A DNA stretch of 37,584 bases, from assembly GCA_019637105.1 (NCBI GenBank), contig JAHBWF010000072.1, positions 1-37,584 of the forward strand. The letters run 5' to 3'. This document shows, in pieces, positions 31,882-36,474 of this stretch. The stretch comes from Labilithrix sp. Its GTDB lineage: Bacteria > Myxococcota_A > Polyangia > Polyangiales > Polyangiaceae. Below the pieces are notes generated by a model that saw only the letters and a program-made list of their open reading frames with translations, ran no database searches and had not been told where the DNA came from. The translations under genes and the position numbers were made by a program. Every line of letters starts with the position of its first letter. Positions within the stretch are counted from its first letter, which is position 1.

Positions 31882-33327
31882 TCAGCGGGCGACCGGGGCG
31901 TAGAGCGACACGCCGCGCACGTTCTCGTCGACCCGGAGCGGCACCTTGAGCGACGGCAGCGCCCGCTGCTCGCAGTCGGTGCGCTCGCACAGGCGGCAGG
32001 TCACCCCGACGGGGACGCAGGTGTCGGGGTTCGCCATGTCGATCCCGTCGGAGTACACGAGCTCGCGGGCGTGCTCGACCTTGCACCCGAGGCCGATCGC
32101 CTGGACCGGGTGCTGGGCGTGGTAGCCGCCGGAGTCTTTCTGGATCGTCCGCGCGATGCAGAAGAACTCGTCGCCTTCGGGCATGCGCGAGACCTGGATG
32201 CGGATCATCCCGGGCGTCAAAAAGGCGCTGAAGATGTTCCAGCGCGGGCAGGCGCCCGAGAAGCGCGCGAAGCGGATCCCCGAGGCGCTGAAGCGCTTCG
32301 AGATGTTCCCGGCGACGTCGATGCGGATCATGTGGAACGGCACGCCCTCGGCGCCCGGGCGGCGGAGCGTCGTCAGGCGGTGGCAGACCTGCTCGAAGCC
32401 GACGCGGAAGCGCCGTCCGAGCACGTCGATGTCGTAGCGCTCGGCCCTCGCCGCCTCGAGGAACGGCGCGTACGGCATCAGCACCGCGCCGGCGAAGTAG
32501 TTCGCGAGCGCGACCCGCGCCAGGCCGCGGGACTCCTCGGTGGTGAGCCGCGCGTCGGCGGTGATGCGGTCCATCAGCGCGCCCTGCGTCATCACGGCGA
32601 TCTGGTTCGCGAGCTGGAACGTGCGGCTGCGCGTGGGCAAGAGCTCCGAGAGGACGAGCAGCTTGCGGTGCGGATCGAAGCGCCGGAGGACGCCGCGCTC
32701 CGAGCCCCAGCGCGCGATCTGCACCTGGATGCCGAGGTGCTTCTCGAGGTAGCGGATCAGCCCCGGATACAGATCGTCGCTCGTCAGCTTCGCGCGCGCC
32801 GCCATCGCCTCCGCGGCGGCCTCGAGCTCGGGGAAGTGGTTCGAGCAGCGCTGGATGAGATCCGTCACCTCCTCGCTCGGCAGGTGGGCGCCCGGCGAGG
32901 CGAGCTCCTCGCCGTCCGACAGACGCGACGAGAGATCGTCCGCCGAGGCGCGCGCGGCCCGATACGCGCGGTAGAGCGAGAGGACGGCGCGCGCGGCGCT
33001 CGGGCTGGCGACCGCCATCTCGCGGACGTCGACGGACGTGAGGTCTTGCTCTTCGAAGAGCGGGTCGGCGAACGCCTCGGTGAGATCGGCGACGAGCCGC
33101 GCGTCCTCGTCGGTCGCGAACGAGTGCACGTCGACGTTGCACAGCTGCGCCAGCTTGATGAGCAGGTTCGCCGGGAGCGGACGGCGGTTGTTCTCGATCA
33201 AGTTCAGGTAGCTCGGCGAGATCCCGAGCTTGTCCGCGAGCTGGACCTGACTGAGCGCTTCACGCCGCCGGAGCGCGCGGACCTTCGCTCCGAACCGAGG
33301 GGCTTCGGCAGTTTGACGCAGTGGCAC
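31882..33327 (-). CDS. XRE-type regulator of the RamB/PrpR/ScfR family
   Basis: 481 aa. An N-terminal helix-turn-helix (12-68: RREALSQVQLADKLGISPSY, NLIENNRRPLP) is followed by an IrrE/ImmA-like middle domain without the HExxH protease motif (RTFQLANQIAVM). The C-terminal domain is the acyl-CoA-sensing type (GYHAQHPVQAIGLGCKVEHA). Four cysteines, Cys437, Cys444, Cys447 and Cys452 (DTCVPVGVTCRLCERTDCEQ), form a cluster. Mycobacterial PrpR of this family binds short-chain acyl-CoA and an Fe-S cluster, and RamB controls glyoxylate-shunt genes. The GTG start at 33327 has GGAGG 6 nt upstream. Divergence from aceB-aceA makes these its likely target. Confidence 0.93.
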   Translation of the reverse strand: MPLRQTAEAPRFGAKVRALRRREALSQVQLADKLGISPSYLNLIENNRRPLPANLLIKLAQLCNVDVHSFATDEDARLVADLTEAFADPLFEEQDLTSVDVREMAVASPSAARAVLSLYRAYRAARASADDLSSRLSDGEELASPGAHLPSEEVTDLIQRCSNHFPELEAAAEAMAARAKLTSDDLYPGLIRYLEKHLGIQVQIARWGSERGVLRRFDPHRKLLVLSELLPTRSRTFQLANQIAVMTQGALMDRITADARLTTEESRGLARVALANYFAGAVLMPYAPFLEAARAERYDIDVLGRRFRVGFEQVCHRLTTLRRPGAEGVPFHMIRIDVAGNISKRFSASGIRFARFSGACPRWNIFSAFLTPGMIRIQVSRMPEGDEFFCIARTIQKDSGGYHAQHPVQAIGLGCKVEHARELVYSDGIDMANPDTCVPVGVTCRLCERTDCEQRALPSLKVPLRVDENVRGVSLYAPVAR

Positions 33328-33348
33328 AATTCACCTCCGTGGCGTTCC

Positions 33349-33359
33349 TGTCATTGACA
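33349..33359. promoter_or_regulatory. Operator copy 1, TGTCATTGACA
   Basis: A palindrome of two TGTCA arms around one base. It lies just downstream of the regulator -10, at or beside its expected transcription start. The flanks extend identity with copy 2 to CCTGTCATTGACA (33347-33359). Confidence 0.6.
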
Positions 33360-33362
33360 CAA

Positions 33363-33391
33363 TTTACAATGCTACAGCCTGTCATTGACAA
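33363..33391 (-). promoter_or_regulatory. Promoter of the RamB-like regulator gene
   Basis: On the minus strand, -35 TTGTCA (33391-33386; five of six) and -10 TGTAAA (33368-33363; four of six) are 17 bp apart. The leader would be about 25-30 nt with GGAGG before GTG 33327. The two palindromes flank or overlap these boxes. Confidence 0.55.
33380..33390. promoter_or_regulatory. Operator copy 2, TGTCATTGACA
   Basis: A second exact copy, 31 bp from the first (about three helical turns). It overlaps the -35 of the regulator promoter, so binding should block its RNA polymerase. The TTGACA within it could also be read toward aceB, but no -10 follows at 16-18 bp. Confidence 0.6.
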
Positions 33392-33434
33392 GCCAAAACG
33401 GCTGTTTCTTCCGTATCAACTGAGCAATCTTGAC

Positions 33435-33441
33435 TGCAAAG
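33435..33441. promoter_or_regulatory. Partial RamB-type box upstream of aceB
   Basis: TGCAAAG (CTTTGCA on the other strand) matches the core of the corynebacterial RamB box (A/G)AACTTTGCAAA at seven positions. It may be chance in this AT-rich spacer. Confidence 0.25.
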
Positions 33442-33484
33442 CGACCTCACCGCAATCTCCTAACACGTTGCATCAAGGCGACGG

Positions 33485-33496: not shown

Positions 33497-35125
33497 ATGA
33501 CGACCCCCGCTGCCCCCTACTCCCTCCACGCCAAGCCGGTCCCGGGACAGGACTCCATCCTCACCCCGGACGCGCTCGCGTTCGTCGTCGAGCTCGTCCG
33601 CAAGTTCCGGCCGCGGGTCGTCGAGCTGCTTGCGAAGCGCGCGGCGCGCCAGGCGGACTTCGACGCGGGCAAGGCCCCCGACTTCCTCCCCGAGACCGCG
33701 GACGTCCGCGCGGGCGATTGGCGCTGCGCGCCGGTGCCCGAGGTGATCGCCGACCGCCGCGTCGAGATCACGGGTCCCGTCGATCGCAAGATGATCATCA
33801 ACGCGCTCAACTCGGGCGCGAGCGTCTTCATGGCGGACTTCGAGGACGCGACGACGCCGACCTGGCAGAACCTCGTCGAGGGCCAGGTGAACCTCCGCGA
33901 CGCCGTCCGCCGGACGATCGCCTTCGAGCAGCCCGGCGCGACGCCGGACGCCCCGCCGAAAAAGTACGCCCTCAAGGACCAGACCGCCGTCCTGTTCGTC
34001 CGCCCGCGCGGCTGGCACCTCCCGGAGAAGCACCTCCGCGTCGACGGCGAGACGGTCCCCGGCGCGCTCGTCGACTTCGGCCTCTTCTTCTTCCACAACG
34101 CCAAGGAGCAGCTCGCGCGCGGCGCGGGCCCCTTCTTCTACCTGCCGAAGATGGAGAGCCACCTCGAGGCGCGGCTCTGGAACGACGTCTTCGTGTTCGC
34201 CCAGGACGAGCTCGGGATCCCGCGCGGGACCATCAAGGCGACCTGCCTCATCGAGACGCTGCCCGCCGCGTTCGAGATGAACGAGCTGCTCTACGAGCTC
34301 CGCGACCACTCGGCGGGCCTCAACTGCGGGCGCTGGGACTACATCTTCAGCTTCATCAAGAAGCGCGCGAACGACGCGTCGGCGCTCCTGCCCGATCGCG
34401 GCGAGGTCACGATGGACAAGGCGTTCCTCGACGCCTACGTGACGCTCCTCATCGAGACGTGCCACCGCCGCGGCGTCCACGCGATGGGCGGGATGGCCGC
34501 GCAGATCCCGATCAAGAACGACCCGGCGAGGAACGAGCAGGCGCTCGCGAAGGTGCGCGCCGACAAGCTCCGCGAGGTCACGAAGGGCCACGACGGCACG
34601 TGGGTGGCGCACCCGGGCCTCGTCCCGGTCGCCAAGGCGATCTTCGACGAGCACATGCCCGGGAAGAACCAGCTCGGCGCGCACGCCTCGGGCGGGGCGA
34701 CGGTCGGCCGCGAGGACCTCCTCCGGCCGCACCAGGGGAAGCGCACCGACGCGGGGCTCCGCCACAACATCCGCGTCGGCATCCAGTACCTCGAGGCCTG
34801 GCTGCGCGGTCAGGGCTGCGTCCCGATCTACGACCTCATGGAGGACGCCGCGACGGCCGAGATCTCGCGCGCCCAGGTCTGGCAGTGGATCCACCACGCC
34901 GCGCCGCTCGACGACGGCAGCACGGTCTCGCGCGAGCGCTTCGAGCGCGCCGTCTCCGAGGAGATGAAGCGCATCGAGGGCGAGGTCGGCCAGGAGCGCT
35001 TCGCCGCCGGAAAATTCGACGAGGCCTGCAAGCTGTTCGTGCGCCTCTCTCTCGCTCCTCGGTTCGAGGAGTTCCTCACCCTCCCCGCCTACGAGATCGT
35101 CACCCAAGACACCCTCGGGGCCTGA
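33497..35125 (+). CDS. aceB: Malate synthase A
   Basis: A 542-aa malate synthase, condensing glyoxylate and acetyl-CoA to malate in the glyoxylate shunt. The length and motifs fit isoform A (E. coli AceB about 530 aa). Visible are the catalytic Arg in RPRGWH (169-174), [16 protein letters not shown] (217-232), [13 protein letters not shown] (251-263) with the Mg-binding Glu, and [16 protein letters not shown] (274-289) with the Mg-binding Asp281. It is the first gene of aceB-aceA and divergent from a RamB/PrpR-type regulator. The AT-rich spacer with twin palindromes is the probable control region, so induction by acetate or fatty acids is expected (inference). Confidence 0.96.

Positions 35126-35157: not shown

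Positions 35158-36474
<1,317 letters not shown>

Follow-up and report, generated by a model that had tools for sequence, protein, structure and literature searches.

The twin repeats that lie between the gene of an ScfR-family regulator and aceB in this Labilithrix DNA are, judging from sequence comparison, very probably the true operator of the adjacent regulator, and we consider it likely that this protein is a relative of class 2 RamB that uses them to repress itself and for acyl-CoA-gated control of aceBA. The direct TGTMA array to which the repeats belong matches the two boxes that class 2 RamB of Paracoccus denitrificans needs (PMC10370305). The suggestion of an earlier note that the operator may be new for the family is mostly not upheld, since TGTMA-type boxes at a 32-bp pitch are known for class 2 RamB (PMC10370305). 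The palindrome twin is a variant on known boxes and not a new operator class; what is new is a spacing grammar across phyla together with an association between the repeat unit and a residue of the recognition helix. Among the literature matches listed for the exact 11-mer palindrome, none was related by title, and among those listed for myxococcal RamB, no title pointed to such an operator. A single promoter observation becomes in this way a predictive operator grammar for an acyl-CoA-sensing family that steers acetate and propionate use.

The window (the whole stretch of DNA that was analysed, 37,584 nt) carries the regulator gene at 31882-33327 on the minus strand (481 aa), aceB for malate synthase A at 33497-35125 on the plus strand (TIGR01344, 838 bits) and aceA for isocitrate lyase at 35158-36474, also on the plus strand (NF011645, 767 bits). 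The spacer is common to the regulator and aceB, as the earlier note had it, and its two exact 13-bp repeats with an internal palindrome, said to lie on one face of the helix, were confirmed: identical copies of CCTGTCATTGACA stand at 33347-33359 and 33378-33390, 31 bp apart from start to start (32 bp in one relative). Each holds the strandless palindrome TGTCATTGACA, in box 1 at 33380-33390, where it overlaps the possible -35, and in box 2 at 33349-33359, beyond the possible -10. As direct repeats on the minus strand, the units are TGTCA of box 1 (33386-33390; exact in 11 of 11 genus members), an extra unit (33372-33376; TGTAG in the window, TGTMA in 7 of 11), TGTAA of box 2 (33364-33368; TGTMA in all 11) and, 9 bp after it, TGTCA of box 2 (33355-33359; exact in 10 of 11). 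A degenerate first unit of box 1 (33395-33399, minus strand), 9 bp before TGTCA, reads GTTTT in the window and GTTCA in some relatives; it is a weak candidate, proposed from the spacer alignment and by analogy with the Paracoccus box.

The two hexamers previously assigned to the promoter of the regulator do lie where they had been placed on the minus strand (TTGTCA at 33391-33386, TGTAAA at 33368-33363, gap 17 bp), while a sigma-70 consensus scan found no promoter for the regulator at its threshold. The putative promoter TTGTCA-N17-TGTAAA (33363-33391, minus strand), read from the sequence and the 22-bp unit spacing, is plausible but unproven. TGTAAA has neither the A at position 2 nor the T at position 6 sought by the scan, and the TGTAA inside it is a conserved operator unit as well, that of box 2. 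For aceB, we infer a possible weak promoter, TTGACT-N17-CAATCT (33430-33458, plus strand), whose second hexamer is poor and whose TTGAC aligns in 11 of 11 genus members (as GTCAA on the minus strand).

The regulator has the architecture that defines the ScfR family: an HTH domain (XRE-type, related to SinR and others), an IrrE-like domain and an ScfR C-terminal domain with C-X2-C-X4-C, the profile matches being PF09856 (216.4 bits; cut-off 24), PF06114 (82.8) and HTH_31 (47.6). Its best PDB relative by sequence is Mycobacterium tuberculosis PrpR (6cz6, E 3.9e-93), and the four [4Fe4S] cluster cysteines of that protein (C363 and C447-X2-C-X4-C455 in MtPrpR) all align in the window protein. Because it scores 425.6 bits with the RamB equivalog NF038139, under the curated cut-off of 700, it is not RamB in the curated-model sense. 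Its closest named loci, with 98 and 96% identity, are in MAGs of Labilithrix sp.

On both strands of the window, TGTCATTGACA with at most one mismatch occurs at the two repeat positions only, against 0.05 matches expected in the shuffled window. A genome search for further sites had been proposed as a check, and in the whole assembly (8,454,228 bases, Labilithrix-like, 91.5% complete) it returned just two copies of TGTCANTGACA, both in the regulator-aceB spacer, and no copy of the reversed control pattern. The same assembly holds one ScfR match above the Pfam cut-off and one TGTMA triple (one mismatch allowed); we regard this genome as a minimal case, with a single regulator, a single site and a single operon. 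A lone exact TGTCANTGACA is not rare, as at least one copy is found in 32 of 59 related genomes, with 11 copies in one; the unusual point is that both of two exact sites fall inside one 42-bp stretch.

The regulator is present in 11 of the 13 genus genomes searched (its own included) and absent from G002 (97% complete) and G005 (72% complete). Eight of the 11 regulator-bearing genomes have the exact palindrome twin, with a pitch of 31 bp in seven and 32 bp in one, which supports the expectation of conservation in relatives keeping the regulator; six of these eight have no further exact TGTCANTGACA site genome-wide. In the three genomes without the twin, the inverted halves are partly decayed and the direct TGTCA is kept, except for one CGTCA; over all 11 members, the TGACA halves are exact in 8 and 9 and the TGTCA halves in 11 and 10. 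Columns in which at least 10 rows agree make up 26/43 of the array and 25/126 of the other spacer columns (Fisher P 1.7e-6, which is optimistic, as the 11 aligned spacers are kin and one is partial; conservation within the genus is inflated by relatedness). The 22-bp spacing between TGTMA units recurs in 11 of 11 genus spacers. As had been expected of them, the repeats go with the regulator: they overlap its 5' region, and in G002, where aceBA is kept and the regulator is absent, neither TGTMA nor TKACA was found in the 300 bp upstream of the aceB match. At 29 aceB loci (L260 duplicating L258), the array pair stands upstream of aceB in 20 of the 23 that have a divergent regulator, three of the 23 showing no pair, and in 1 of the 6 that lack one. 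The conservation of the array, its spacing and strand, its linkage to the regulator and their joint absence are direct observations.

Beyond the genus, the regulator has a match at E 1e-60 or better in 108 of 377 genomes of the phylum. It faces aceB or aceA in the fetched stretch of 73 of 79 non-duplicate loci with at least 49% identity (searches of the phylum and of relatives) and of 46 of 62 non-duplicate named-genome loci (L150-L218), which include Acidobacteriota (Geothrix), Eisenbacteria, Planctomycetota and Alphaproteobacteria (Azospirillum and others). These arrangements argue against an operator that serves autorepression only, with aceBA under other control, as does the Paracoccus RamB, which both activates and represses its operon (PMC10370305); we hold such a restricted role to be unlikely, even though the array lies over the start region of the regulator and a separate conserved TTGAC belongs to aceB about 40 bp off. 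Of the autorepression layout proposed in the earlier note, the overlap with the 5' region of the regulator stands, and autorepression can be at most half of the role, because P. denitrificans RamB activates and represses the divergent glyoxylate operon (PMC10370305).

Spacers were counted without the duplicates L031, L150-L155 and L170 and without loci lacking a divergent aceB/aceA match. The 6-mers enriched in the 73 myxococcal spacers include TGTAAA, TTGTAA, GTCAAT and TGTCAA, and a TGTMA pair at 8-9 bp occurs on the regulator strand of 47 of these spacers and on the ace strand of 1 (shuffle mean 0.5), with none in 26. The pair is found in 11 of 22 alphaproteobacterial-type spacers (<49% identity), all on the regulator strand and none on the ace strand, and is absent from the other 11; in 24 other spacers (at least 49% identity) it is seen on the regulator strand in 3, on the ace strand in 1, and is absent from 21. 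TTGTMAA stands on the regulator strand of 19 of those 24, where the commoner unit spacings are 10, 16, 17, 24, 40 and 41 bp; in Geothrix-type loci the units of a pair are 10 bp apart, and Azospirillum has a wider set of spacings. In 88 thinned class 2-like loci, 50 spacings were of 8 or 9 bp, where 500 random trials gave a mean of 9.8 and a maximum of 19, and 30 were of 31 or 32 bp, where the trials gave a mean of 7.7 and a maximum of 17. A composite pattern, which had been shaped on three of its five matching genomes, gave 6 hits in 5 of 377 genomes, each no more than 120 bp upstream of a regulator match, and its control gave none. The conserved element in these comparisons is a directional TGTMA array on the regulator strand with some freedom of spacing, its units often 8-9 bp and its boxes often 31-32 bp apart.

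This recurrence also bears on the idea that the conserved letters are mainly the regulator promoter TTGTCA-N17-TGTAAA, around which the palindromes arose without regulatory meaning. The 22-bp unit spacing of all 11 genus spacers is indeed that of a 17-bp -35/-10 spacer, but other taxa have units that recur at 8, 9, 31, 32 and 41 bp, the TGTCA of box 2, which is exact in 10 of 11 members, is situated beyond the possible -10, the consensus scan gave no promoter, and the matching Paracoccus boxes are required for RamB binding (PMC10370305). We find this idea improbable and prefer the array as an operator.

The palindrome itself is a much more local feature. TGTCANTGACA occurs in 10 of 130 spacers (the 130 including 11 distant actinobacterial ones), by group in 9 of 73 myxococcal, 1 of 24 other and 0 of 22 alphaproteobacterial-type spacers; a single palindrome is also present in L062 and L157, and one with C at position 7 in L064, L067 and L156. 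We had considered the palindrome as the core unit, which is ruled out by its presence in 10/130 spacers and by the inverted half decaying first. The twin palindrome is instead a genus-level elaboration, a local addition to the array. That the palindromes are bound by another factor (e.g., a GntR-type dimer), the site of the ScfR protein being elsewhere, is very unlikely: a perfect palindrome of 11 bp is what a dimer classically binds, and exact TGTCANTGACA occurs somewhere in 32 of 59 related genomes, mostly outside this spacer, but six of the eight twin-bearing genus genomes have no further exact site and would thus offer a second factor no additional exact target, G002 lacks array and regulator together, and the ScfR unit grammar accommodates the TGTCA half as well.

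Several loci outside the main series deserve mention. A second ScfR subfamily (L019-L029, L131-L149), 32-39% identical to the window protein and with a helix that is typically AYL[SN]LIE, occurs commonly across the order and class and has no aceB/aceA match in the fetched stretch; several members have TGTAAA or TTTACA in their own upstream regions, with an 8-9-bp pair in 1 of 18 thinned loci. In four genomes of one family (f3; L253, L256, L257 and L259), aceBA stands without a divergent regulator and has TTTACA and TTGACA upstream of aceB; the second-subfamily ScfR that these genomes encode at another place may regulate in trans there. One in-frame TGA is reported for each of the aceB homologues L249 and L255 (in G019 and G021), and the regulator match of G021 begins only at residue 128.

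The unit can be compared with the recognition helix of the regulator, S-x-S-Y-L-N-X-[LIM]-E, in which X is Leu in the window protein; this position may correspond to Gln33 in the 434 repressor, which contacts bases. Leu occupies X in 166 of 201 loci, with TTGTMAA in 123 and the TTGCRAA type in 5. Gln occupies X in 16 loci (L032 plus 15 of 18 plasmid loci hand-picked from two listings), with the TTGCRAA type in 12 and TTGTMAA in 0; because the Gln rows form one clade (99% SH-aLRT) among Leu rows, with 1 change on the midpoint-rooted tree, these 12 of 16 are not independent and the association rests on one evolutionary event. The residue is otherwise Met (3) or His (1), and 15 of the 201 loci, 11 of them distant actinobacterial, have no helix pattern match and fall outside both classes. 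After thinning, 106 Leu rows have TTGTMAA in 70 and TTGCRAA in 6, and 13 Gln rows have 0 and 10, respectively. The first eight Gln loci, from which the idea came (L032 and the first plasmid batch), are of the TTGCRAA type in 8/8; a second batch of eight, fetched once the idea had formed but before helix or upstream region was known, has that type in 4/8 and TTGTMAA in 0. The commonest TGCRAA spacings in Gln loci are 8, 20, 9, 31, 22, 41, 12 and 29 bp (each at most 5 times), and the commonest TGTMAA spacings in Leu loci are 9, 32, 41, 17, 16, 31, 22, 8 and 10 bp. We hypothesize that the unit type may be tied to this one residue, Leu with TTGTMAA and Gln with TTGCRAA, which would give a one-residue handle on the change of DNA specificity in this family. 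A wider scenario is tentative and perhaps has the odds against it: TTGTMAA units at an 8-9-bp pitch in boxes 31-32 bp apart could be the older, Leu-read ScfR operator, from which the TTTGCRAA box of RamB/PrpR/PccR would have come as a later branch through one Leu-to-Gln change with spacing unchanged, and the Labilithrix array would have gone on to twin palindromes; "older" and "later" are guesses here, the midpoint root serving drawing only. In the tree, which was built without Pden_1365, the ace-linked alphaproteobacterial members lie in one large part with the window protein, and this part also holds the Gln clade.

Some of these loci stand apart. Three alphaproteobacterial loci (L204, L206 and L272) have TTGTGAA or TTGTGAT repeats upstream of the regulator, a possible third unit variant, with helix SNSYVNMLE in two and SPSYMSQIE in one; L272, with TTGTGAA repeats, is one of the second-batch Gln exceptions. 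At the Gln locus L278, the start, and hence the upstream stretch, is probably wrong. L032, in the same-genus assembly G004, encodes an ScfR protein of the Gln type and has TTTGCGAA boxes; Novosphingobium (61.9% identity) heads the plasmid listing, and proteins like it were found at E 1e-130 in 0 of 235 phylum genomes, G004 being outside the genomes listed. Either a stray contig, G004 having 6% contamination, or a transfer could account for L032.

In the mechanism that we propose, by analogy with known relatives, the regulator would read TTGTMAA-type units 8-9 bp apart, and, with the boxes 31 bp (three turns) apart, one bridging tetramer or two same-face dimers would span about 33349-33399. From the layout we infer both self-limitation and control of aceBA: the array covers the start region of the regulator, so binding should limit regulator synthesis, and it lies about 80-110 bp upstream of the weak aceB promoter, so the bound protein should control aceBA. 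Without ligand, aceBA would be held down by the bound regulator; a short-chain acyl-CoA would alter the oligomer, and aceBA would be activated. In Labilithrix, each outer TGTCA would have been extended to the perfect inverted repeat TGTCANTGACA, probably with higher affinity.

The ligand probably differs from that in Paracoccus. Of the MtPrpR residues compared for acyl-CoA binding (numbering derived from a protein alignment), R338, K347 and R348 are kept in the window protein and K217 and K410 are not, while Phe155 is Ser and Arg159 is Thr. In MtPrpR, Phe155 selects the acyl group (PMC6765138); the position is Ser/Thr in 50 of 60 related rows and Phe, Tyr, His or Trp in 13 Gln-clade rows. Paracoccus has the crotonyl-CoA carboxylase/reductase (Ccr) of the ethylmalonyl-CoA pathway, whereas the window assembly has no match over the family cut-off and 18 weaker ones to enzymes related to it; the ligand route of Paracoccus is thus probably missing, and the same signal is unlikely.

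Among known systems, the class 1 RamB of Corynebacterium glutamicum belongs to the same family and controls aceA and aceB, but its site, AA/GAACTTTGCAAA, is made of another unit, and variants of it lie upstream of many genes rather than in one place as here (PMC4448153). M. tuberculosis PrpR shares the architecture and the four cluster cysteines; it differs in its core, TTTGCRAA against TTGTMAA in the window, and in its target, the methylcitrate operon, and its 17-bp site is TTTGCAAA-N-TTTGCgAA with a 9-bp pitch (PMC6765138). No exact copy of TTTGCAAA is present in the window spacer, in agreement with the earlier note's view that the operator differs from the corynebacterial box, and the window regulator does not have the TTTGCAAA-type operator of class 1 RamB/PrpR; the sequence occurs in 1 of 73 myxococcal, 0 of 24 other and 0 of 22 alphaproteobacterial-type spacers. 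PccR, another bearer of the TTTGCRAA box, is reportedly the subject of Carter and Alber 2015.

The closest counterpart is class 2 RamB. Its motif, which Kremer et al. (2023; PMC10370305) obtained with MEME on 67 genomes, is a pair of near-identical boxes separated by 18 bp, and in P. denitrificans both boxes are needed for activation in vivo, while mutating both abolishes binding in vitro (PMC10370305). The Paracoccus protein activates the glyoxylate operon on acetate and apparently represses it on succinate, and methylmalyl-CoA converts it from tetramer to dimer (PMC10370305). On the ramB strand, the oligonucleotides read AGTCAGTATTGTCA-N18-TGTAAGGTTTGTCA and then CATGGCC (orientation read from oligos 46, 47 and 26); the boxes have the same direction as ramB and lie directly against its start codon, because oligo 26 has codons after ATG (PMC10370305). 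From TGTCA to TGTCA these oligonucleotides measure 32 bp and from unit to unit 9 bp (PMC10370305); the window counterpart has TGTAA-N4-TGTCA in box 2 and 31 bp from TGTCA to TGTCA. The box sequences given for Pden_1365 differ in having no TGTCANTGACA palindrome and a pitch of 32 bp against 31 bp, and the window has an extra unit between the boxes (PMC10370305). In two marks of class 2 RamB the window regulator agrees with it, being divergent from glyoxylate-cycle genes and having two boxes about 18 bp apart on its own strand (the first unit of box 1 degenerate); like Pden_1365, it is an ScfR-family protein divergent from the genes for malate synthase and isocitrate lyase, with two boxes of TGTMA-type units on the regulator strand beside its start (PMC10370305).
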